Under the pieces are notes generated by a model. That model was given only the letters and a program-made list of their open reading frames with translations. It was not told the DNA's origin and did not search any database. A stretch of 64,000 bases of DNA. Source: Citrus sinensis. Lineage: Eukaryota; Streptophyta; Magnoliopsida; Sapindales; Rutaceae. Below are positions 38,429-63,296 of the stretch, piece by piece (positions within the stretch are counted from its first letter, which is position 1; each line of letters opens with the position of its first letter). The translations under genes and the position numbers were made by a program. The DNA is taken from NCBI RefSeq assembly GCF_022201045.2, contig NC_068562.1, positions 11,035,001 to 11,099,000 on the forward strand. The letters run 5' to 3'.

Positions 38429-41400
38429 ATTTTTATGGAGGCTCAAACCCTTACACTCACTATTGTAAGTGCAATACGTCTCTCTCGATGGACCAAAAAC
38501 TCATTAGTCTTTACGATTTGACTCTTCATGCGCACCTTTACTGTAAGTTCTGGGCATTGGCAGAGCCAAAATTTTGAAGGCCAAAATATATAAAACGAAA
38601 AAAAAAAGTATATGAAGGGGTAAAATGTTAAAATGTTAAAGCAATTAGGGCTAGTTCATAAAATAAAATTTCAAAAATAGTAGGATGTGGATATTTCCCC
38701 CCACAATTTTTGTAAATTCACCCCACTTCTATAAAATAATTACGATGAGTTCACAATATTCTTAAAAAATATAAATTAATAAATATTTGTACAGTTAATT
38801 AATTAAATCCTTCTATTAATTTTTTTCTTAGGTTCTTTGACCATCTTTGATAATAATAATTTTTCACTAATTTATTATTATGATATAAAAAGAAAAAATT
38901 ACCCTCATAAAACATGAGTTATTGTATCTAATAATTTTGGTATTTAATTGTGTGACTTATAATCTAATATTTTTAAATGAAACTTAATTATTATTTCACT
39001 TACGTGTAAATGACATAAATTTGACAATGTAATAATTTATATGAGAATTGTATCATAAAGACACTATGTTAATTTAATTAAAAAATAATAATCATACTAA
39101 TAAAGTAGTATTAGAAATAATGAGTTTGGTACAAATTAGAAAAATATTGAAGTTAAAGTAAATTCTCGATAATTTAACTTTATAAGGGTGAAATAGTCAA
39201 TTTAAACTTATGTCAAAACAATCTTTGTAATCAAATTTACTAAAAAAACTAAGTCACAAAAAAGTGAATTAAGATATATTTAATTAATTAATTTTTCAAA
39301 TTTTTCTTGATTTGAAAATTTTGAAAATAATGTACAACTTTTATAATTATTTTTTTGAAAATAGGTTGGCTTTACAAAAAAATGTGGTGTGGAGATATCA
39401 TCACTCAAAATAGTAAGTTATAAATATCTAAAGCAAATTTGGGTTTATGCATGATCTAAAATGAATTTATATAGGTCAAAATGTGCAAAAATACATTCTG
39501 TCTAACAATAGGATTAGTTCAATAAATTCCCAGAAGTAAATAAACTAAATGATAGATATTTAAAAAAAATTCTAAAATTTTTATTATAATGGTTTGTCTT
39601 CAATTTTAATTGGATAATTTTCAAACAATTTTTTTTTTCACCTGGCCACCTGAATTCAAATACTAGGGCATATATATTCTAATGGTTTCAAGTATAAAAT
39701 TGTAAGTTCTTTAATAAGACAAAAGGAGAAATCAAAATTCTATACAAGTTGTTAACTTGATCATCTATAAAAGCATATGAAGCCACATTGAAGTATTTTA
39801 ATCTGCAATAACAGATGAGTGCCAAACAGCATATTGCTGTCTAATCACATAAAACCTGTTTTATAATCTACAGATTAAAGATTGATTCTTGTCTTAATAA
39901 GTATGGTTTGTGCGCAGCGGAGGAGTAGACAACAAAAAGGGGGCTCTAAAAGTTTCCCACAAAGGTTGGTATAATAATGAGCTCGTTGACCTGGAAATGA
40001 AATCTAATGCTGCCATTTATTGTTTTAACCAATCTTCACCAGCCATGTGGGCAGATTTTTCATAGTCAACGAGTTAAATATAGAGTTTAGCATCTTGTTT
40101 AGTATTAGATTATGAGATAAACCTGAAAAGGTTATTGGCAATTAGACACAGAAGGCCAAAGCTTTTGTAAATTGGACAGTGCGTCTGTCTAAAAGGAATG
40201 TTGAGGTAAAGGTTAAATTATTTTCACAGAACAAGATAAAATTGCATTCTACTAAAACACACGAGAGGCTCGAATCCTTTTCTCAGAATTGATTTACCAT
40301 CCAACTATTAAATTTGAATGTTATATGCATAAGAGTCCAAAAATTTTCTTGCTAAAAATTCCTGGTGCACCAACGCATTAAGGCTGAATCTTATAGGTGA
40401 AATCATACGTAGTGGTGCATTATGGCCTAGAGCCATTGGCATTATCTAAATTTATCTTCTTGTTTTTGGGGACTGGGATTTGTGCCACTACCACTTTCTA
40501 CTGGGTACTTTGTACTATAAACATAGTGAAAGTTGAATTTGATTCTGGTGCTTGCAATTGGGGTTTGGAGTTGAAATTGGGTGTGGAAAATAAATTTTAA
40601 TTCAAGCATAATATATTACAAAATTCTTTATTATGCAAAAGGATTCCCCATTTAGCAATAGTTATGTAAGTTCAGGAAATATTCATGAATTATTAACAGT
40701 CGAGTGGTAAATCACCGGTGAGAGATTTGATATCCATGTTCATTGATAGAAGTTTATTTATTTATTTATATTTTAGATATTTTAAAAATAGATTCAACTT
40801 GTTATAACTTAAATTGAATTTCTGACTCAATAAATTCAAGAAATTTTTTATTCTTTTTTATAAAATTTTAAAAATATTCTAATTTAAGATCTCAGATTTG
40901 TTGAAGTCCGAAAAAACTTTTAAATCATATAATTTAATAATGTAATAACTGTTAAAACTATTAAACTATGTAGTTTAATAATTTTTTTTAAAAAAATTTA
41001 ATGAAGTTTTAAGATGTTATACCAGACCAACAATAGTTAGTGTATGTGTGTGAATTGCACCACCAAAACATTTCAAATCTTTTTGAGGAGGATGGATGTT
41101 GCAATGTTGGATTTCCAAGGACTATAAAACAAAGAAACTTTTATTGGTGGGACTTCAGCGGCTAAAGAAGTAATAATAGCAAGCAAGAAAGAAAACGGAA
41201 AGGAAGGAAAAAAGTTGGCAAGCTTTCTCTTGCTTCTCTTGCACATAAGTTATCATTTTCCAGGTTGGTACCCAATAAACACATAATAAAGAATAAAATT
41301 GAAAATAAACGAAAATAAAATTAATTCTTGGCTTGGTTATCTTTCAGTTCTTGATGGTTTTTATTTTCACATGTTGTTTTCTTGCTCGGAAAGACAAATG

Positions 41401-41982
41401 AGGAACTTGGAAGTTCGTAGCTTTATGGTTAATGGGTGTCAATCAATCATAAAAAATTCATAAACTAATGATTGAGAGAAAGATATCTTCTTTTTCAAAT
41501 TTGGTTTATTCTTCGTTATTTCAAGTAATATTCTTGAGGTTGCTGTTTTTATTTTATTTTGTTTATTTTTTCGGTTATTGTTGGGTTTTGCTTTAGTTTT
41601 TGGCCGCTAGCCACAGGCATTGATTCTCTTATTAAGTTGCAATTGCAAATCAAGAAAAATGGATGAATGTGCTCATTAATGTGCTCTGCTGCTCTGGTTG
41701 GATTCTCTTCTGCTAATAAAAAGATATCTTGCTTTTTGTCATTGTCTTTTTAGCCTCTTACTTTCCATGGATGCTTTCTTTTCTTTTCAGTTTCTAGGTG
41801 GTTTTTGCGTATATGTGTAGCTGGTGTACACTCTGGACATACTTAGCGATGCATATTCACCTGTTTTATTCCTTTTTGGCACTATAAATACCTGTTTCTT
41901 TCTGGGTTTTTGTCATTGCAGTAGCTCCTCTTCTGTCTTTTCCATAAGTGGAGTTTTTAGTGCAGTTTGTAGCAAAGAGAAA

Positions 41983-44900
41983 ATGAGCTATTCCCACCAA
42001 ACCGTGGGCTCTGGTTTGTTTCTTTACCTTCTTCTAAAGTTTCAATTTTTTCATTTTCTGTTCTTTGGTTCCTTTTCAGTTAACTTGCATGAAGTTTTTG
42101 AGTGTGTGCGCTGTGTTTTGATACTGGTTTTGTATATCATCCGAATTTTACACATCAGTGGTCAGGGGTTCTGGTTCTCTGGTAGACTAGTTCAATTTTA
42201 AGTGAGGTTGCATGTTACAGTGTTGCTCTTTGAACTTCAATGTTTTTTGAGAAGTGACTTTCTTGCTCCGAATTTTAGGTAGCAGAGCCGCTAGAAGGAC
42301 ATTTGAGTTTGGAAGGACTCATGTGGTGAGGCCCAAAGGGAAACATCAGGCTACCATAGTTTGGTTGCATGGCCTGGGAGATAATGGCTCGAGGTATTAT
42401 TTCTATTTTTTTCATTTTATTTTATCCCTTTTTAAAATTTTTACAGTTCTTTTTTTGTGTATTCTTGTGATTTATACCCATTATAGACCCTGGAACTTTT
42501 TTTTTTCAGAAGGGAAATTTATGTTCTATGTATAGAGGGACTGAGTTGCTAAGTAGATATATTCTGAAATTTTTATGTGATGTTCTTCATATTTAGTTTA
42601 GGCTTAGGTTACTAAAGTATTCAGCTTAAATATTTATGATTCAACTAAACTTTCTGCTCACTGTTTCACGTGATTAAACTAGTAGCAGACACAAGATATT
42701 GTTCGTATCTGATGCTTACCTTTTCTTTCCTATTTTAACGATGGCTTATGGTTCCAAAAGAAAGAAAAAGGAAGGAGTTAGAGAAAGTTAGCATCTTGGC
42801 ATGTTCTAAATTGAGGGGCTGTGTGATTTTAAAACTTTAATGTTGAGTTTGTTTTTTTTTCCCCCATTGTTTTCTCAATTGCATAAGTTTTGATGGGAGA
42901 GAGGGGTGCTGCCTTGAAATGATATAGATATGATTGTTGGTCTTTTTTATTTCCCCCTTTTTTCTTGTCTCATTTGTCGCCAATCTTAGCTAAAGAAGCC
43001 TAGATTAGGAAAAGAGCATATGCCATAGTCATGTATAGGGGACCACTAATTCACTTGGTTCTCCTGCCAAACAAACACCCTGTCATGACCTTTTAACAAA
43101 AAGATATTCATGCTAATACTAGTTAATAGATGTCTTTTAGAATTTTTCTATGATTCCAAGGTGTAGCGTGGTGAATACACATCGCCAATCCAAGGTGAAA
43201 CAGGTGCTATTCCTTTCATCGTTGAGCAACGTGCAGATAAATGTGCACATAATTTTGTGATTTCTGTCATTGAAAGCTGCTTGAGCTCAATAATTGTGGT
43301 CCCATTATCCTAGATGAATATATTAATTAGATTTCTCACAGGCCTTGCTATTGAGGTTGTCAACTTCTGAGTGATTTAAAGAATCTCCATCTGCCATTGG
43401 ATTCTCTTGAATTTGCAGATTAAAAAATAGCATGTTGCTTATTATCTTTTTCCTGTGGGGGTGGGGGAAGGGGGAGCTTTGCTTCACTGATGATAATATA
43501 GATAATAGGCACAGTTAAGAGTTAATTTTCTTATTCAGTGTTCTGTTTATTTGCAGCTGGTCCCAGTTATTGGAAAGCCTTCCTCTGCCAAATGTAAGGA
43601 TGCATACACGTTAAATTTGTCTCTCTTGTTCATGCAGAATGCACTTTTTCCTTAATCTACACCAGTTAAAATTTATATTTTCAATTATTCTGACCTGTAT
43701 GATGACATCTATATTTTATCGTATGAATCTGTTGACATTGCAGATAAAATGGATTTGTCCAACTGCTCCTACTCGTCCAGTGGCAATACTTGGGGGATTT
43801 CCATGCACTGCATGTAAGATTGATTGATCTTTTCTGGTTAATGCAATACTTGAATATTTTATCAGTATGGTCTTTTTTTTAATGTTTTGGTACTGATTGA
43901 AATCACGTACACTGCTTCTTCAATCTTCATTAGGGTTTGATGTGGGAGAGCTTTCAGATGATGGTCCGGAAGATTGGGAGGGTTTAGATGCTTCAGCAGC
44001 ACATATTGCAAACTTGTTGTCAACAGAACCAGTTGATGGTACTTCCCAAGGCCAAATTGTTTCCAAAACAAATAACTCACGATTTCAAATACACCAGCAT
44101 AAATTTATGGTTCAAAGATGAAGTCCAGTGCCTAGTCCAGTGCCTTCCATATCTATAAAAAGGATGTGGCTTTTAATCATATAAATATTACCATGTCTCA
44201 ATTGGCAACTGGAAATCTTTTTAACCATTATTTCCAGGAGCTATTCCCATATCATTTTCCAGGTTCTTACTCATAATTTCATGTCTTAATTAGGAACTGG
44301 AATTCATCATACATTTTTATTTGTTCTTGACAGTTAAAGTTGGTATCGGAGGCTTCAGCATGGGTGCTGCAGTGGCACTTTACTCAGCAACATGTTGTGC
44401 TCTGGGTAGGTATGGAAATGGGATTCCATACTATGTCAACTTAAGGGCGGTTGTAGGATTAAGTGGCTGGCTTCCAGGTTCAAGGTATGAAGTGATTTCC
44501 TTCTACAATAAATGCTTTCTATCTAGAAGTTCTCATCCATGCAGAAATTTACAAGCCTTCACCCTTTATCCCAAAACTAGCATGCTTGAATAAATTTAAG
44601 ATATATCATATGCTGCAGAAACTTAAGGAACAAAATAGAAGGATCACATGAGGCGGCAAGGCGTGCTGCATCCTTGCCCATTTTGCTCACTCATGGACTT
44701 TGTACGTAGTCACATCTCTTCCAATGATAGCGTCTTTTTTGTTCTTGTTTTTCTTTTATTTTTTAGTTCAAACACAAAAGACCATGAGGCTAGCAAACTT
44801 TTTGATATGTCCGTGACTAAATGCAACTCCTTATCTAATCTTCATATTCATTTTCACATAGGTGATGATGTAGTCCCCTATAAATACGGAGAGAAATCTG

Positions 44901-45138
44901 CCAACTGCTTGAGTATATCCGGATTTCGTCATCTCACATTCAAATCCTTTGAAGGGTACCTCTTCAATTTCTTTTATTTGCAAGAATATACTCACGAGTA
45001 ACATACAAAAATAGAATCAAATACCTGACTGTTTGGTTTTGGCTGTGCAGGCTTGGTCATTACACAGTCCCTAAAGAGATGGACGAGGTCTGCAATTGGC
45101 TTACGGCAAGGCTGGGACTCGAGGGTTCCCGTGCATAA
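41983..45138 (+). CDS. Acyl-protein thioesterase-like alpha/beta hydrolase
   Basis: Serine hydrolase of the APT1/APT2 (LYPLA, carboxylesterase) family, expected to remove palmitoyl or other acyl groups from proteins or lysophospholipids. Nine exons join in frame: 41983-42013, 42279-42393, 43557-43593, 43744-43813, 43934-44038, 44334-44484, 44619-44701, 44862-44955, 45051-45138; 257 aa, typical for the family. The fold starts with ATIVWLHGLGDNGSSW. The nucleophile elbow is GFSMG with Ser128. The acid is Asp199 in HGLCDDVVP and the base is His232 in LGHYTV, so the triad is complete. IKWICPTAPTRPVAILGG is the family's oxyanion-loop region. The short first exon (10 codons) suggests a 5'-UTR intron upstream. 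The exact acyl substrate is not visible. It converges tail-to-tail with the TSO1-like gene. Confidence 0.94.
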
Positions 45139-46070
45139 CTGTAGCACAGCATCAGTTTCTTGTTGAATCTAGCGAGGAGGAGGAAGCACTTTGAAACAAT
45201 AACACTGGGGGAGAAACAAGCATATGTTCTAATAGGTAGTGGATAGAAATGGTTGTGGGGGTATATGGTATACATGGATCAAGATCAAGAATCTTAACCG
45301 TTTTCCTTGCCAGTTCTAACAATAAAATTTCGGGTGCAGTTTTCTTACATTTCAGTTTTAGAGTGTAGATGATAATGGATGTAGTGGATTCTACTTATCC
45401 GAGCATTTTGTTATTCATTAATGCAATATTAGGTCCTATGGACTTTGTCGATTAACTTCTCTTCTTTATTTTTCTACCTCGTAAAGATGAGGTTGTTTTG
45501 TTTGTATGTCCTGAGATCAACTTAAGAATCTGATCCTGTCCATAACATTACAACAGCACAGAGCCACAGGTTAGGTTAAGGAATCAAATTCATTTGAAAA
45601 TTACCCAAAAAGTTAAAAAAAGAAAGAAAGAAAGCTGTAAAGGAAATGCGTTCTGCCTCTTAAATGATAGCATGGAAACAGAATTGCAAGGAAAAAGCAG
45701 ACAAACTGGAACCTGCAATATTATTTGGAAACTATAAATCTTTATACTAATGGTAATTACATGGTGTTCTCTTACCATTGGCTGCCGGCGACAATACTAA
45801 ACTCTCTACAAGATTGAGAAAAAGGCCAAATATTAACCTCTTCTCTAACAGGAGTGCTTTCTACACATCTAGGGAATACAGATGCAAGCTTGCAAGCAGT
45901 TTTCTTGTATTCTTATTATTTTATTTTTTTATGGGAAAACAGGGAGCAACTTACAGGTTTAGGGTTAAATGAGCTTTTGAGTGAAAAACCCTACGGCTTG
46001 ATTATCCATTATCCATTTGCACTGTTAATCGAAATAAATCTGAAGTGACCAAACCTTTCCCTGACTCTGC
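45139..46070. other. Convergent intergenic spacer (3' flanks)
   Basis: Probably contains the thioesterase 3' UTR (AATAAA-type signal near 45325) and the TSO1-like gene's 3' UTR. No coding region is supported. Confidence 0.55.
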
Positions 46071-49000
46071 CTATCGGTTATCATTGGGATGACCTTTAAA
46101 ATCACTTCCAGTTTGGCCAATATCATCTTTTGACTTACTGTATGGAGTAAGAGGAGGAAATGAAGGCACATTTTTCCAACTGAATTTGCGGTCGCTTTCC
46201 AAACCTCCTTGAGTAGAGCTTGACCTCAACTCCTGTGATTGGAACTGTGGTGGAGATATTTGTTTCCTGTTTGGTACGTCAGCTTTGCTTGCATTGGACG
46301 GCGTAGAAGTATCCTTCTGAATCTCAGGCATATTGTCTTCTTTTGTTGTGTCATGGACTTTACTGTAAGAACTGCGCCTGTTATGTTCAGCAAAGTCCTC
46401 ATGAAACTGCGGCATAGAACTCATGGGTGATTGCCAGTGAGGGTTAACTGACTGGAAGCTGCTTTCGTGATGCAAATGGGTTCTACGAACATTTTGAAAG
46501 TCTCTCATACTGGGGGAAACAGAAGAAGCTTCAGCTTCTGGGTAAGAATAAGAAAGTGGGGTGAGATGGCTCATATCAGGAAGATCTTCCCATCTTGCCG
46601 AGAACGGTTTTATTGTCCTAGTTTTGGTGGAGTCAGTCACGTTCGCTGCTGCATCCAGTTTTACATGAGACTGATTCTCCCATCTTTGAACTTTCTGGTA
46701 TTTTGATTCTGCAATTTCACATTATGGAGTAAGTGCACTGGTAACTATGAGAAGAAATAAAAGACTGTCCTGTCACGATGTTAGTCCGGGAAAAAATCTG
46801 GCAACATTTTTAAATCAAAATTATTTTTAGTGAAGTGAGAGAGCTGAAATTCAATAGCTTCACGACCAGTTATAAAGTTTCAAGTGACTAGACCATACGG
46901 TTTAGAAACGATGCCGGCTGCGGGAGTTCATAGGGAGAATATATTACAGCTGATAATTAGATATAAATGATTGACCTAGTCCACGAGTTTTGGAAGAAAA
47001 TTCTGATTGAAAAACTTTTGGAATCTGGTTCACTTTCAAGTACTCTAAATAGTTTAACTACTTTACCATATGACAATATAGAACTATGTATTTTTCTGAA
47101 TTACTAAGGAGCTAAGGTTGCATAATGGTTCTAACCTGTCTTTCTGCCAAATGAATTGCTGCAACCCTCACATCGGCATCCATCGGAGCATCCAACATTG
47201 GCCTTAAACATAGAAGAAAATATATACATGAATATGTTTTGCATGATTGAAAGGCCAATGTATACCAAGTTCCCATCCCATCTCCAATCTCAAGTGACAA
47301 GGATTATGGCCTTCCTTTTAAGACCAAAGGATAATTTCACAATCATTTTCACATTATATATGCAGGTAGAATGCCTCATCCACTGGGACAGGTGATGGAA
47401 CAATGCAGTGAGATGAGAAATTTTCCAAGTTTATGAGCTGAAAAATAAATTCTGCAGTCTGGCAGTTATCAAAGTATTTCTATACCTGAAAGCATTCACA
47501 ATATTTTTTAAGACACTTGGACTTCTTGCAATTGCATCCTCTTTTGTGCCTGGCTGAGGCTGGAGTTGTCAAGTTCCCATCTTCCTGTAAAGTGTTCTCA
47601 CGTTAGAATACTTCCAATTCCCTAATGACCTAGATGGATCTAGTACAAAGGAATTACCACAACATTTGCTGCTGAGTCAGCATGGCCTACAATCTTTGGA
47701 GCAAATGCAAGTGGATTACGGGATTGAATTTGTTGCCGCGTATCAGTAACTGTTTCTTCATATTCGGGCTTGTTAAAACAGCTTTCACATGCGCAAGAAT
47801 CGATGCAATAGATTCCAGCTGCAAAGCAATCGCAGTAACTGCCAATGACCAAAAATACAGATGAAACATACAAAAATGTACAGGGAAATCTGACTGTGAC
47901 TCTATTTACTAAAGAAAAGCCTGAGGCAATTCATAAGTTCACATCAAAGACTTGTGTACACAAAGTTGGTTTCCTCATTAAGTATAAATTTATGTCCAAC
48001 ATACCCTTTGAACTCTCTGCCCTAACCCAAAGCGAGTTTTTGCAGATAGATGTCAATAACAAATTAAATTGCCATGATTTGTGAATTTTCAAATTCCTAT
48101 TGGTCTACCACAAAAGCTTCTACTTAATAAACTACAGTATGAAACATAATATATCTTATGACAGGTGCTTGATACATTATGAACTTTTTAGTTTCATTCC
48201 TATTTCATTAGCATCTACAGCATAAATCCACTTTCTTCAGTGGTGCTTATAGAGGAAGGCATAGTCATCACCATTACTGACTGGGTCAACATTGAAAGAG
48301 CTAAAAAAGGCCTCAATAAGATCATGCTGCACTCTGAAAATTTCACCATCTGAAATGATGGATTTGTTCACTATAGGACAAAGAAACAAGTATAAAGGAA
48401 TTAAGAAGAGGCTCTATACATGCTTCCAGCATACTTACAGTTTCAAGCATTTAGACTTCTTACAATTGCAACGTTTGCAGTCTTCACTCTCGCTGCTATT
48501 TGATGCCTTCTTCCTGGATTCATAATAGATTCTCAAGTTAGACAACCAGCATAAACAAAAAATTATCAAAATGGCCGGAATGAAAAACTTTAAAAACATG
48601 GACTTGCCTTTTCTTCTTGGGGCTACCTTGGTTTAACTCCTCAATTTCTGAGGTAAGCATCATGCCCTCACATGGGGCTGCCTGCTGCTCAGAAAGTGTC
48701 ATTTGCAGAGAGTCACTGATTTGTTTCATACTGTCAGTATATTGAGAAATGACCAAGCTGGCTCCCACAACAGCCTGATCATCTAGCTGGTCATTCTTCA
48801 TATAGTCATGAATTCTCCCAGCTGCAGAAGAAATTAAGCAACTATTTGAGTCCTTTTCTAAGCGATTGCTCCCCCCCAGGAATAAGCATATCCTGTTGTG
48901 AACTCACGTAAGTGGACAAAAACTTACTTGGCATAAGATCTGAGCTTATGGGCATTAATTCTGCCATGCTGCTTAGATGCAAGCTAAAACCAGGCGGAAG

Positions 49001-52000
49001 TGGACCAATCAAGGGAAGGCTTTCTTCATTTTGACTGGATCTAACAAAATCAGATTGGCAGAAAGAGAGCCTGGAAGCTACATTCTGGGAACTGCTGGTT
49101 GCTTCCCTACCACTGGAGACCTCTCTTGGTTCAATATCAGATGGAATCAGACTCTCCCAGTCTCTAAAGCTAGCAGGTAATGTTGAATTATCACTTTCTT
49201 GGGTTACATTATGGGAACTATGGCTCTTAGAAGTAGTAATACACTTGCCAGCCAATGCAGCCTCAAATTGGAGATGTCTACGTATACCACGTTGATGTGA
49301 AGTGGATTCCTACATTTGATTAGAAAAGTTACCAAACGCAAAGTGAATAACAAAACTAAACCGGCAGCACTTTCATTGTTCGAAAGCAATACGTGAAAAA
49401 TGATAATCTTCACTGATAAAATAAAATAAATCAGCTTCTCACGATTTTACTGTCATATTCAATAATCCTTCTATGGATGATACGAGACCGAGACTAAAAA
49501 ACAGTAAGAACGTAAAACTTAAAGAAGACAGCAGTTTGCACCATGCCACATTGTAAGTTTCTGACATAGAAATTGGGCTAAGAGATGATACGAGCGAAAG
49601 ATTAAGGTCAACATAGAATGAATAATATCTGAACCTCCAATGAATTCACCCTTGATAAAAATCTGAGGAAACGTAGGCCAATGGCTGTGTAGAAAGTGAC
49701 AGCATTAAGAAAAACAAGCGTCTCAAGAGCAAAGGAACAAGAATGTCGTGCACATTTGGTATTGGTATGGAAAATATAGATGGCATTTTGTTGTTTGTGG
49801 CAGATGAAGATAATGGACTGGGAAAAGATTATACAACTATGGAGATTCAGGAGATCTATATTTTGCTTTAGTTAAGGTTGAAAAAGACCTGTGCAAAGAT
49901 TAATGGATCATGAGAAAGTATGTCTCTTATCATGAAGACTATTAATACCACAGATATATACCTTTAATAATCCTGTTGAGACTGGTCCTACATTCTCCGA
50001 ACTGTTTTTATCTGCTTCAACATTCTGCAGATTTTTAGGGGACTGACTTCTTCCATCCTGCCCATTATGTTGAGTACCTGTATTCTGCAACATTACATTC
50101 TGTGAAACCGACATTTCAAAAGAACTCATTGTATAAAGGCTTTTCTCATCAAAGTGTGCTGTGAATCTTAATCAATCAAAAATGATAATCAAACCTAGAT
50201 CAACTAATATTGGATACTAAAACAAGCGATTAACCAAGATTGATCACAACTAATCTCAAGAATTGACCAAAGATTGAAGAAACAAGTAACTCAGAAACCC
50301 AACACAGAGAACAAAAAAAGGACACACAACTCACTTTCTTGGCTGAAGAACAGGCCTCGTTTTTTCTCATTAATGACAAGAAATGTGAAGGGATTCAGGA
50401 TGAGATTATCAAGAATTCTATTGACACCTTAATCACTCTCAACCAATAGTACACAGAAAGTTATGCATTCATTGGATATGGTCTTTTCACATCAAAGCAT
50501 GCTGTAAATTTTGATCGATCAAACCCAGATGAACTAATCTTGGACACAAAAGCAAAAGACTAACCATGATTGGTCACAAATAATCTCAAGAATCAAAGAT
50601 TGAAGAAACAAGCAACTCAGAAACTGAACACAGAGAACAAAAGAAGCACACACAACTCACTTTCTTGGCACAAGAATAGGCCTCACTCTCTCATTAATGA
50701 CAAGAATAAACCAAGAATTCAAGATGAGATTATGGGAACTCTGTTGACACCTTAATCACTCTATAATATCTGCCAAGAAGGTTATGAACTCTATAACATG
50801 CCTCACTAACCAGCTCCAGCAAAGGCAGAGCAAATAAAAGTTAGTTATTCTAACTAACTTCTCTTACCAACCCAGCTTTGATGACCCCACCACTTTGACT
50901 GCTACGCAGTCAGACCTTAACAGCATTTGGAGCCTCTAATTGGACTTTGCATCACCCTTTTGACAAATCAGTATTTTATGATTATTCATTCCAAAATAAA
51001 GTAAATTTTTAAATTTGCATACTCGCCCGTGACACATACTGTTCATAATGTTGTGCACTAGAAAGAAGAAACGTATTTGACTCAACCTGATCAGCCTTTT
51101 CTGTGGGGGTTAACTTGTGCGAACCGTCAAAGCTTTCAGCATCCCTTTGCTCAATGGCAGTTTCAAATAAAGCAAGTGATCTTAAAGGGTCTTGTTCGGC
51201 TTGATCTGGCAACATATGCATGAAATCCTCTGAATTCCTATCATTAGCACCATTTACTTTTGGGCTGGTTATTGTGGGGGAATTAAAACCACTGCTTGAC
51301 AACTTTGACACATTCTTAGCTGGCTGCACACATAACTCATTAGAATTTGAACATCCCTCTACCTCCACAGGATCAGTCAGATAATCATCAACACACCCTG
51401 ATGGACTGCAAGACTGCAACTCCTTTTGCATGCAAGGAACAAGTACAGTACTCATTCGATTACCACAATCTCCATAATCTCTGCTAGCTGCATCTGCATC
51501 ATTGCTGAAGAAAATGCGAATAGAAAGAGTTCAAATATGACAGAATATATCAAAATAATCATTCAACTTTCCAAAGCACTAAAATCCCAGATTAAGATAA
51601 CTCAAACCTTTTCAGGAAGCTAGTTTCCCGCTGCAGATCCAATCGGGGCGTTCTAAAGACCGGCGGCGGGGTTGGAAATTGAGTTTCGAAAAACCTTTGA
51701 GTATACCTTGCTGCTTTAACTGAATTTATAGGAGAAAGGTTGCTAATGAAATTGAAAACAGGAGACTCCTGCAGTTACAAGAAGCATAAAATTGCAACTT
51801 AGAATTTCAGAATTAAAACGCCAGTCAGAACTTAAGCATAGAGTAACCAAAACCAAAACTGTCCTCTGTAATACATGTACTTCTTGAAAATAAACATCAA
51901 GATAAACAAACAAATAAGGCTCCGTTTCAATTCCAGTACATGTATTTGCGAAAGCATTTTCAAATAAAACGACTTATTGCAAGCATCCATTTAAAAAAAT

Positions 52001-52465
52001 AAAAAAGCTAATATAAAAAATTTATCTTAAAAGCACTTTGAAGTCCCGTTTAACCCGCAAATGTTTTCATCTATTTCAATAAAACATTTCAAAATAAACA
52101 CGAAAGCAATTTTAATTATTTGAAAACTCTCTAAATGAAAAAGGGAGAAAAAAAGAAAAAAAATTGAAAAAATCAAAATAAAAAAAAAGTGTTCCTTGAT
52201 TTTGAAAATCGAACTGACGAGCAATTCCACTATTTCCACCCGCCGAAAAAAAAAACACGATTTTGTTTGGTTACCATGCAAGTGTAATACTAGGTAGATC
52301 CAAAACAGCAAAGTCGATCAGATCACATAATGCAGAAAAAATAAAACGACATCATGTTAATCTAAAACGAAAAAGAGTGGAAACCAGACTAACTTGAACG
52401 GCCGGAGACGAGCCAGGGGTTGACAATGACGTGGCTTTAATCCGATCGCCCTCAGGAGACTCCAT
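46071..52465 (-). CDS. TSO1-like CXC-domain (CPP family) DNA-binding protein
   Basis: A nuclear cysteine-rich polycomb-like protein of the TSO1/TCX (tesmin, LIN54-related) family. These bind CHR-type promoter sites and act with plant DREAM/MYB complexes in cell-cycle and floral development. Eleven exons join in frame (minus strand): 52394-52465, 51608-51768, 51023-51504, 49962-50158, 48928-49309, 48608-48821, 48439-48513, 47658-47838, 47486-47584, 47136-47202, 46071-46708; 855 aa. The N-terminal [14 protein letters not shown] motif is diagnostic. A basic PKKKRKK stretch precedes two CXC repeats: [19 protein letters not shown] (515 on) and [16 protein letters not shown] (605 on), joined by the conserved [10 protein letters not shown] linker. 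The intron after exon 6 has a GC donor (AG/GCAAGT). Intron 4 carries a copied piece of the GRXS15 gene, intron 3 a tandem duplication. Which paralogue it is (TSO1, TCX2 or TCX3) is open. Confidence 0.92.
49620..49758 (-). pseudogene. Copied GRXS15 exon-intron fragment
   Basis: These 139 bp match 59969-60107 in the GRXS15 gene without indels and with three substitutions, all in the intron part. The copy holds the end of GRXS15 intron 4, its acceptor (CTACACAG) and the first about 65 nt of exon 5, coding for [20 protein letters not shown]. It stops before the exon's own donor. It sits inside intron 4 of the TSO1-like gene in the sense direction. Confidence 0.95.
50135..50763 (-). repeat. Tandem duplication around the TSO1-like exon 4 acceptor
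   Basis: Copies at about 50135-50440 and 50475-50763. Shared blocks include AAAGATTGAAGAAACAAG, AACACAGAGAACAAAA, CACACAACTCACTTTCTTGG and TTGACACCTTAATCACTCT. The first copy contains the real exon 4 acceptor (ATTCACAG at 50159-50166, read on the minus strand); the second holds a related but weaker version. Confidence 0.85.
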
Positions 52466-53327
52466 GTCGATCCGAAACCGTCAAAACCCTAACAGCTTCT
52501 CTCCGCATTGTATAATTTCCTCTCTACAAAAGAGAATTCTTTTCCTTTAAATTTTTTCATTTCTTTATTACCGATAACGAAGATAGAGTTTCGTTTTTGC
52601 ATTTTTGAACTCGTCACTGAGCGGGAATGTAGTTTCGTATCTCTCGCTTCTTCCTTTTTGGGCTGTTTTCTGGGCCTAGTCCATTCAGACCCTACATTTT
52701 GTCTTATTACACCTCAAGTCTCTGAGTAGGACTAAATTGAAATAATCCATAACTTTGTGGAGTAAAGTACTATATTTATAAAATATGAGGACAGTTTGAA
52801 TATTTGAAAAGTCACTCATGGATGTTTTCATTTGTTAATTATGTTTAAAAATTTAATAATATAAATATTTTAATATTTTTTTATTTTTAACGATACTTAT
52901 AATTTTATAATTTATTTATTAATAATTTTAAAAATTAAAAATTAAAATAAAAAAATGAATAGAGCATAGAGATTTCACTTCATCCCTGTTTTCTCTCTAA
53001 ATAAGAAAATAGGTAAAAAAAATTTTCCATCTCTTTCCTAAATAAAAAATTAAATATAAAATTATTCTCATATTCTCTCCAAATAGAAAAAATCTCTGAG
53101 AATACTATCCCCGTAAAGATTTTTGCGATCCCTACACAACACTTTCGGCATATTACGGGCCGGTTCATTTTTTATGCTCGGGTCACCCGACCCAAATCAT
53201 CGTCTTCTAAACCAATAAACCCCAAAACATAAACCCTAATACAATGAAACTAACTTCAAGTTAAAACACTTGTATTCTTCTTCCTTTTGATTAGTTTTCC
53301 CGCATTTTCCTTTACTTTCCCACGCTC
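52466..53327. promoter_or_regulatory. Divergent promoter region shared by TSO1-like gene and PWP2
   Basis: The 862 bp between the two start codons hold telo-boxes (AAACCCTAA) at 52484-52492 near the TSO1-like start and 53231-53239 near the PWP2 start. Site II-type motifs TGGGCT (52659-52664) and TGGGCC (52671-52676) lie between. Telo-box plus site II is the known signature of plant ribosome-biogenesis and proliferation genes, fitting both neighbours. The middle (52740-53120) is AT-rich and may be transposon-derived. Confidence 0.6.
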
Positions 53328-59817: not shown

Positions 59818-62800
59818 TCAATCTGACTTCTGGTTGGATGCAATACCTTTGAGCTTCTCCTTTAGTTCACCAGACTGTAAAGGACAACACAATATTCAGG
59901 CAATGGCATTTCAAAGAAAGTCAATTCACACTCAGTACCTAAATAATGTGATACCTGGTGCATATTTAGAATAATATCTGAACCTCCAATGAATTCACCC
60001 TTGATAAAAATCTGAGGAAACGTAGGCCAATGGCTGTGTAGAAAGTGACAGCATTAAGAAAAACAACCGTCTCAACAGTAAAGGAACAAGAATGTCGTGC
60101 ACATTTGTTATGTCTAGCAAATAATGAACCATTTATACATTTAAATACTTATGGATTTATCAACGGAGAATAAACGTATTCAACGTTGAAGGAAAAGCCA
60201 CTATCAAGCTGAACAAAGCCAAGAGAATTAAACACAAATACAGAAACTTGCAGATTTAGATAAAAGATAAACTAAGTCACCATAGAGGTACATACCCGTC
60301 ATTAACAAACAATTCAACAATGTATCAATAACGAACAGGAGGATAAAGCCTCAAGCAGAGGAATTAACGATGCTTAGCACAAAATATCAACTGGGACAAG
60401 GTCATATCTTTTATTTTTATTTATTCTCCACATATAAACACTAGAAAGTGCAGAAAGCATATTGATTCATACAATTCAAAATAGAAGAGGCTCAAAAAGG
60501 CATTATAGAAGAAATTTATCAGAAATTAGTTTAATATGTAGAAAGAAAATTTATTGAACAACATTTCCGGAGCATCTGACTCTCACTGCGTGAGTTTCAG
60601 CGTTCAACTAATCCAAAAGGGCTAAAAGGACACATCTACATATCAAATATACAGGTAGACGATGATAATCCACCAGATTACAAATGAGCGAGCTCAACAT
60701 CACTCTTGCATTTTATTTGATTGAGAACTATCTCCAACTACTTCACAACAGTTTTTATTTTTACTATGTATCAAGTATCAAGCAGACCATATTGAATAAC
60801 AGAAAACAAGTCATCAACGTTTTCAACCGTCATAATTTATCAGAAGACCTGCCTCATCACCCCTAAACCGAAAATAAAAAAATAACATAAATGAAAAACC
60901 AGACAAAGAAACCACCAAAGATGCTGCTGATGATGATAAATTCCAACATTTTACAACCCAAAGATAATAGGGAAGGAACACTAATGTTATTTGGCAGCTG
61001 AAAGCTACCCAGTAGCAGGATAAAACATTACTGAAGTAGGTTAAGAAAATTTTGAGAAGCTGTATTTGCAAGTTATTATGACATGAGACGCACTAGAAGA
61101 GTAAAGTTTCAAGTCACATGAGAATGGATTCTCTGGTGATTATGCCGAAATCAAAGAATGATATTTGAGATTCTAACCCATCACATTGATGGCCTTTAAC
61201 CTAAGTAAAAGTTCTGGGTATTTTGGTTATATATTAACAATGCATTTTGATCACAAGTTGTCACATTAATTGCAAGTTGTATCTTAGAAAATTTTAGTCT
61301 CATTCAAGTTCAAGACCATAATTAGAAATCGAGATCAATCCTGCCAAGATCAACTGACCTGAAAGCTTTTACTGCACTTTTAAGCTCTGGATCTTCCAGA
61401 ATATTTCTAGCACTTATTGGAACATCTGCACAGGCCCACAACCATGAATTAAACTACTCTAACCAGTAATATAATTGGAGAGAAATTAACAAATAAAGCT
61501 TAGACGAAGCAAATATGAAGAGGCAACTAGGCCAATGATGAACATAATCTAGCCAGAAATCTTTTAATAATTAGCCGTTTATATAGATTTTTTGATGCTG
61601 ACAATATATTCAATCAGAAATTAATTTGATTTTTTCCATCTCAACCAGAAGAAAATATATCCAATGTACACTGACAATAACTTAAATATAAACAAACTGC
61701 ATGATATATTGTGACCACTTTCAGCGAGTCAATATGTTGTTTTATGGAAAATATATCTCATATAACATTATAATACTGATTTACATACTGTGACCAGGGA
61801 AAAACTTAATCAGGAAATGGGGGAGGCAAGATGAGGTTCATAGGCTAAGCATAAGATTGCCTATCACATTGCTCATGTGATGTCCATTACCTCTGTTGAT
61901 ATCAATGAGAACTGATACAACAATAAGCTTAACAAGCATGTAAAATAATTGAAAAAGTTCAGAGTCCAAAGAACAGAAATAAGAAAACTTACTATATGCG
62001 CCCAGTACACGCACTGCCAGCGAACTGAAACCACATTGAGGAAATTCAGGAACCCCCTTCATGTAAAGCATCACAGGGTTTTCTTTGACATCCTACAGCA
62101 GAATTTGATCACCACTTAATGGACATAGAGCTCCAAAAAAAAAAAAATTAAAAGAAAAAAAATTAATGAAAACAAAGCGAAACATGAAGTTCAAAATTTC
62201 CATCATAAAATAGTGTTGATGATTGACAAGACATCTGTACCTGCTCAACAACTTCCTTTAAAGAAAGGCCAGAGGCGTCGACCTTGCTAGTAGGTCTAAA
62301 ATCCTCATGTGTGTCAGGATCATTGGGCACATCAGTAGAGTATTTCATCCCATTGCGGTACAAGGATCCGGATACCTACTAACAATAAAACGCAAAAGCA
62401 TGAGCTATTGTTCCTATTATGATAATAACAAACATACTAAGCAAAATACTTCATATTTTGGCAGTGATGGATATGATAATACGACGACTTTGTAAACATG
62501 TCTATCACTTAGCTCATTTGACGCCCATGCAATTTGTAGCCCAGACTGAAGTGAATAAAAGTTTTTGAACACACTAACCCTCACAAATAAAATGTAATTA
62601 ACTCAGTGTTGGAACAAGAAAAAATTTTTTTTTAAAAAAAAATCTGATTTTGTGCTCATTGAGAATCCTTTTTGTAAAAATCATTTCTCAGAAAGTACCA
62701 ATCAAATTCTTCATTGAACCAGAAAACACTAACTAAAAATGGCACCAATCAAATTCTTTCCAACAGAAATCCATGTTTTCTCGTTTAAGCAAAATCTACT

Positions 62801-63296
62801 CTATTGAATTACTCCAACATAGAAGCAAAATCATCAAAAATTATTTGAAAGCACTTTTGGCAGTCCCAGAGTCACAGTTCAACGACAGCGACATACATAT
62901 AATTACTGATTTCAACTAATAAAACGCACATGTAGTCCGGAAACATAAAAGGAGAAAAACCCTTTCGAAGTACATCATTTTCATTCAGATATCACTCAGT
63001 CCCACTTTTATATTTCACCTCCAACACCATCAAACAATTCAAAAGTATCAAAAGCTCCGACAAAGCATCATCAAAATAATCAAATGGAAGTTTCAACTAG
63101 TAGACAACAACAATTTCTTTCATTAGGTGAACTAAGTCCTCTCTATAACATTTCGTACATTTTCCAAAAAAGAAAAAGAAAAACCTAATCCTAAATGAGC
63201 TAAAGCGTCAATCAAGATTCTTACAATTCTAGAGGAACGCGCAGATGGATAACTAGCGATTCCCTTGAAGATTAAGTTGGACAATGATCTCGCCAT
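59818..63296 (-). CDS. GRXS15: Monothiol glutaredoxin S15, mitochondrial
   Basis: CGFS-type monothiol glutaredoxin that carries [2Fe-2S] clusters in mitochondria and supports iron-sulfur protein maturation. Six coding exons join in frame (minus strand): 63225-63296, 62241-62375, 61993-62092, 61359-61425, 59955-60033, 59818-59874; 169 aa. The first about 35 residues ([20 protein letters not shown] and on) are a mitochondrial presequence. The active site CGFS is at 89-92 in [10 protein letters not shown]. Glutathione-binding elements are Lys81 in YMKG, WPTFPQ 127-132 and GGSD 141-144. A 5'-UTR intron is likely at about 63313-63409 (donor CAG/GTCTCT, acceptor TTGTTCAG, minus strand). Part of intron 4 and exon 5 has been copied into the TSO1-like gene. 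Confidence 0.97.

Follow-up and report, generated by a model that had tools for sequence, protein, structure and literature searches.

We have identified a 139-bp piece of a GRXS15-like glutaredoxin gene, spanning an intron/exon boundary, within intron 4 of a neighbouring TSO1-like gene in Citrus sinensis. The copy is 10.2 kb away from its source, on the same chromosome and in direct orientation, both inside a stretch of 64,000 nucleotides from contig NC_068562.1 (positions 11,035,001 to 11,099,000; here the window, to which all coordinates refer unless a contig is named). The abrupt ends, the gapless identity, the nearness of the source and the lack of mobile-element marks favour an origin in double-strand break repair, with nearby DNA serving as the template for a patch; we give this origin a probability of roughly 0.8.

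The copied fragment (49620–49758, minus strand) is identical to its source (59969–60107, minus strand) at 136 of 139 bases and without gaps when the two are compared base by base, the mismatches falling at window positions 49718, 49727 and 49730. Likeness ends sharply at both borders, where the flanking bases differ, and an independent repeat search returned the same pair, stretched to 143 nt with one further mismatch. By the hand-traced exons, the segment starts 74 nt before the end of glutaredoxin intron 4 and runs 65 nt into exon 5, which is 79 nt long. These comparisons confirm what a first-pass annotation had claimed of the segment, namely that it departs from its source by three bases without indels and lies in sense orientation to its host gene, both copy and TSO1-like gene being on the minus strand. 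When the whole assembly (299,734,781 bases in 11 contigs) was searched with the insert, two candidates were scored and both matched: the insert itself (100%) and the glutaredoxin place (98%). The E-value of the match is 9.4e-62 in this 299.7-Mb genome; this is no chance likeness. Genome searches with the whole glutaredoxin gene and with the TSO1-like gene each listed the pair again and gave no third copy of the segment. Likewise, four adjoining pieces of the window, together covering 40000–63296, listed no other match at 95% identity or above, queries aside (for two of the pieces, the best 40 of 229 and the best 40 of 74 candidates were scored). The evidence comes from one assembly, which leaves some room for an artefact of assembly or of haplotype merging. 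Duplications made by assembly errors, however, are more often long or exact, whereas this copy is short, is three bases off its source and lies between intron flanks that are single copy; we consider such an artefact very improbable.

The source gene (59818–63296, minus strand) has six exons and encodes 169 amino acids in a frame open to the stop codon, with a Pfam Glutaredoxin domain (PF00462, E 8.1e-19). Among proteins of solved structure, mitochondrial glutaredoxin-related protein 5 comes closest (E 2.9e-30); the solved chains that lie nearest, 13 sequences with E up to 1e-15, are this protein and further glutaredoxins of the monothiol type. The exact name GRXS15 follows the first-pass annotation and is putative. 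A partial second copy of the gene is found at C2:11944403–11948584 (contigs of the assembly being denoted by C and a number, with the window on C7). It holds exons 1–3 with introns at 83–88% identity and is interrupted by two extra stretches of about 0.36 and 2.5 kb; exons 4–6 were not found in the 5.4 kb beyond it. It is either an older fragment copy or a decayed duplicate.

The recipient gene (47136–52465, minus strand) was traced by hand through ten exons, giving 616 open amino acids, with its 3´ end below 47136 and outside the trace. It carries the Pfam TCR domain (Tesmin/TSO1-like CXC; PF03638, E 3.1e-22), and one of its introns is of the GC-AG type. Intron 4, which holds the insert, is 652 nt long (49310–49961, minus strand), in phase 0 and placed between two coding exons. 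Intron 3 contains a diverged tandem duplication (50126–50439 and 50469–50762, about 79% identity), and a dispersed repeat some 310 bp long has one of its copies just upstream of the start of the gene (52826–53134), with at least 41 other matches of 72–80% identity on C1–C9 among the matches listed. Short exon-like matches to the TSO1-like gene and to the adjoining window region 40000–46070 are grouped at C1:2075782–2082360, as in an old duplicated block.

The direction of copying is inferred to be from the glutaredoxin gene to the TSO1-like gene: at the source the exon piece belongs to an open frame, whereas in the recipient it is left as a stump. The parts of intron 4 that flank the insert (49759–49961, 203 bp, and 49310–49619, 310 bp) match only themselves in the genome search, where a missing match is no proof of rarity. 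Because the insert has two genomic matches only and each flank matches itself only, the insert belongs to no repeat family visible to the search. The borders of the insert show no target-site duplication reaching 5 bp. With shifts of up to ±6 bp allowed, the longest direct repeat measures 3 bp, and 1814 of 2000 random places did equally well or better (186 were without a repeat of at least 3 bp, 770 had one of 3 bp and 1044 one of 4 bp or more). Neither a terminal inverted repeat of at least 3 bp nor a poly(A) tract is present at the insert borders, and no run of five or more A or T occurs within 30 bp of either. The earlier statement that the segment is flanked by neither transposon ends nor a clear target duplication holds on each of these counts.

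Pack-MULEs are recognized by terminal inverted repeats and target-site duplications of about 9 bp, neither of which occurs at the insert borders. Helitrons start with TC, end with CTRR and a hairpin, and form repeat families; the insert begins with CAAATG and ends with ATTATTC on the sense strand, and its flanks match nothing but themselves. It could still be argued that a transposon of one of these types captured the gene piece and that its own ends were lost or lie farther out, and plants offer well-documented cases in which transposons took up genes or pieces of them, as stated in a wheat study (PMC3445842). Such capture is hard to reconcile with flanks for which the search shows no second copy, with borders devoid of both kinds of repeat, and with an identity that stops exactly at the insert in an intron that measures, as a whole, only 652 nt between coding exons. 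We therefore see little prospect for a captured fragment as the origin.

The fragment is no copy of a spliced mRNA, because intron sequence (74 nt) was carried along; target-site duplication and poly(A) are absent as well. An unspliced glutaredoxin RNA could instead have been reverse-transcribed to serve as the patch. Human class 2 templated insertions are without target-site duplication and poly(A), and the paper that describes them gives the authors' conclusion that these patches are reverse-transcribed RNA, with intronic sequence among the templates (PMC5110952). The citrus segment lies wholly inside the transcribed unit of the glutaredoxin gene, in keeping with such a route. On the other hand, the retained intron would require a precursor RNA, and a DNA template would be expected to lie near, whereas RNA has no need to; poly(A) is lacking, but could be absent from an internal RNA patch in any case. 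Taken together, we find an RNA patch unlikely.

Templated break repair, the origin that we prefer, had been put forward as plausible in the first-pass annotation. The copying from glutaredoxin to TSO1-like gene and the borders free of transposon marks, both stated there, are supported. By elimination and from the abrupt ends, break repair is the best remaining account. We infer a double-strand break in intron 4 of the TSO1-like gene, one end of which would have been extended by about 139 nt on the glutaredoxin gene 10.2 kb away, whether on the same chromosome, the sister or the homologue. Joining of the extended end to the other end would then have left a non-mobile copy of the intron/exon boundary. 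Synthesis-dependent strand annealing (SDSA) or polymerase-theta-mediated end joining may have been the pathway. The junctions speak against repair to some degree in being without clear microhomology assignable to the host: read in transcript sense, there are matches of ATA one base past the left end and of TATG four bases past the right end, and both may be due to chance. At induced breaks in Arabidopsis, insertions mostly match sequence near the break and some derive from other nearby molecules (PMC10923293). The background given in the wheat paper includes SDSA break repair in which a fragment carrying a gene served as filler DNA, there linked to a transposon insertion (PMC3445842). One case is no proof of a mechanism.

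The insertion is probably young, to judge by its divergence from the source. Three differences in 139 positions (K 0.022) have a 95% Poisson interval of 0.6–8.8 differences, and rates assumed at 15e-9 to 4e-9 per site per year translate them into an age of 0.7–2.7 My, with Poisson limits of 0.15–7.9 My. The earlier description of the event as recent is in this way loosely supported, within an interval that is wide; as also suggested there, the insertion may be polymorphic. All three differences fall within 13 bp (P ~0.02, a post hoc value), a clustering that error-prone synthesis might explain, as might another allele of the source. The changes cannot be polarised, because the glutaredoxin copy on C2, which might have served as an outgroup, is without exons 4–6 in the 5.4 kb beyond it. 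For the recipient, no paralogue with the pre-insertion intron emerged from the protein search, in which none covers the residues bordering intron 4. That search gave 31 matches, of which 10 are the gene's own exons and the other 21 (on C1, C5 and elsewhere on C7) are 38–75% identical; the DNA search added 10 further short matches of 69–92% on C1, C2, C5 and C7.

The insert brings with it a splice acceptor and about 65 nt of exon, as had been noted earlier. The AG of the copied acceptor (CTACACAG/CCATTGG) occupies 49685–49686 on the minus strand, so that the exon starts at 49684, and host exon 4 ends at 49962. A proper donor is missing, again in line with the earlier reading, and a weak GT (AGG/GTGAAT, intron start 49649) is present inside the copied exon. 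The copied acceptor keeps all 22 scored letters of the source and scores 2.6, equal to it; the 14 true acceptors of both genes range from -1.5 to 11.3 when scored leave-one-out, on a rough scale trained on the 14 introns of these two genes only. Within the TSO1-like intron, seven other AG sites outscore it, and the true acceptor, itself part of the training set, comes top. If host exon 4 were joined to the copied acceptor, the frame would differ from that of the glutaredoxin and would meet an in-frame TGA (49646–49648, minus strand) after 12 codons. All six cassette forms made with the best-scoring downstream GT sites have a premature stop, five of them at this TGA and the sixth, whose cassette exon has 35 nt, 46 codons downstream of exon 4; retention of intron 4 leads to a stop after 17 codons.

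Since the tested joins all meet premature stops, the piece offers no useful exon. The suggestion that it might act as a cryptic acceptor is thus sustained only in part: the acceptor is intact and its use possible in sequence, yet such use would be destructive, being of no value for protein making and yielding premature-stop transcripts. The fragment is probably removed with the intron and without a function of its own. At long odds, the copied acceptor could work as a poison splice site; TSO1-like output would then be reduced or made conditional by the insertion allele, which would segregate as a natural hypomorph.

A 200-kb block around the window, picked for holding the finding and giving no unbiased rate, contains 89 repeat pairs, pairs of at least 60 bp being looked at. 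Apart from the finding itself, pairs that reach 95% identity and are separated by more than 1 kb come either from a dispersed repeat (best 40 of 126 candidates scored) or from one cluster at 175.9–200 kb of the block. The matches listed for this repeat and for two of the window pieces all lie on C1–C9, which would fit an assembly of nine chromosomes and two small contigs. The cluster (C7:11175875–11200000) is made up of long direct and inverted repeats, many of them 95–100% identical, and includes a 10.5-kb inverted pair at 94.8%.

Transfer of exon pieces into introns is a proposed first step of exon shuffling. The TSO1-like insertion illustrates how such a step can fail, the exon being without a donor and in the wrong frame. 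A single case changes little by itself; insertions that are clean, probably young and traceable to a source close by help to gauge how often break repair moves exon pieces into introns.

In conclusion, the citrus insertion is of a type that is already known, and what is new is this instance. It resembles plant filler DNA and the templated insertions at breaks attributed to polymerase theta or SDSA in being a short copy from the neighbourhood, free of transposon marks and left by a single event. Vaughn and Bennetzen reportedly described, in 2014, patch-mediated insertions in rice, by title mostly tandem duplications; these too are natural plant insertions ascribed to break repair, whereas the citrus copy is dispersed by 10 kb. 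Compared with the small segments, from the flanks of the break or from T-DNA, that the Arabidopsis paper chiefly treats (PMC10923293), the citrus patch is longer, at 139 nt, and its template, about 10 kb away, more distant, which tells somewhat against the break-repair account. With the human class 2 insertions it shares a template from elsewhere (136/139 bases, 10.2 kb off), the lack of a target-site duplication (none of 5 bp or more) and of poly(A), and the placement of a gene piece in an unrelated site; it differs in that the host is a plant and the template close by, where the human study prefers an RNA-derived patch (PMC5110952).
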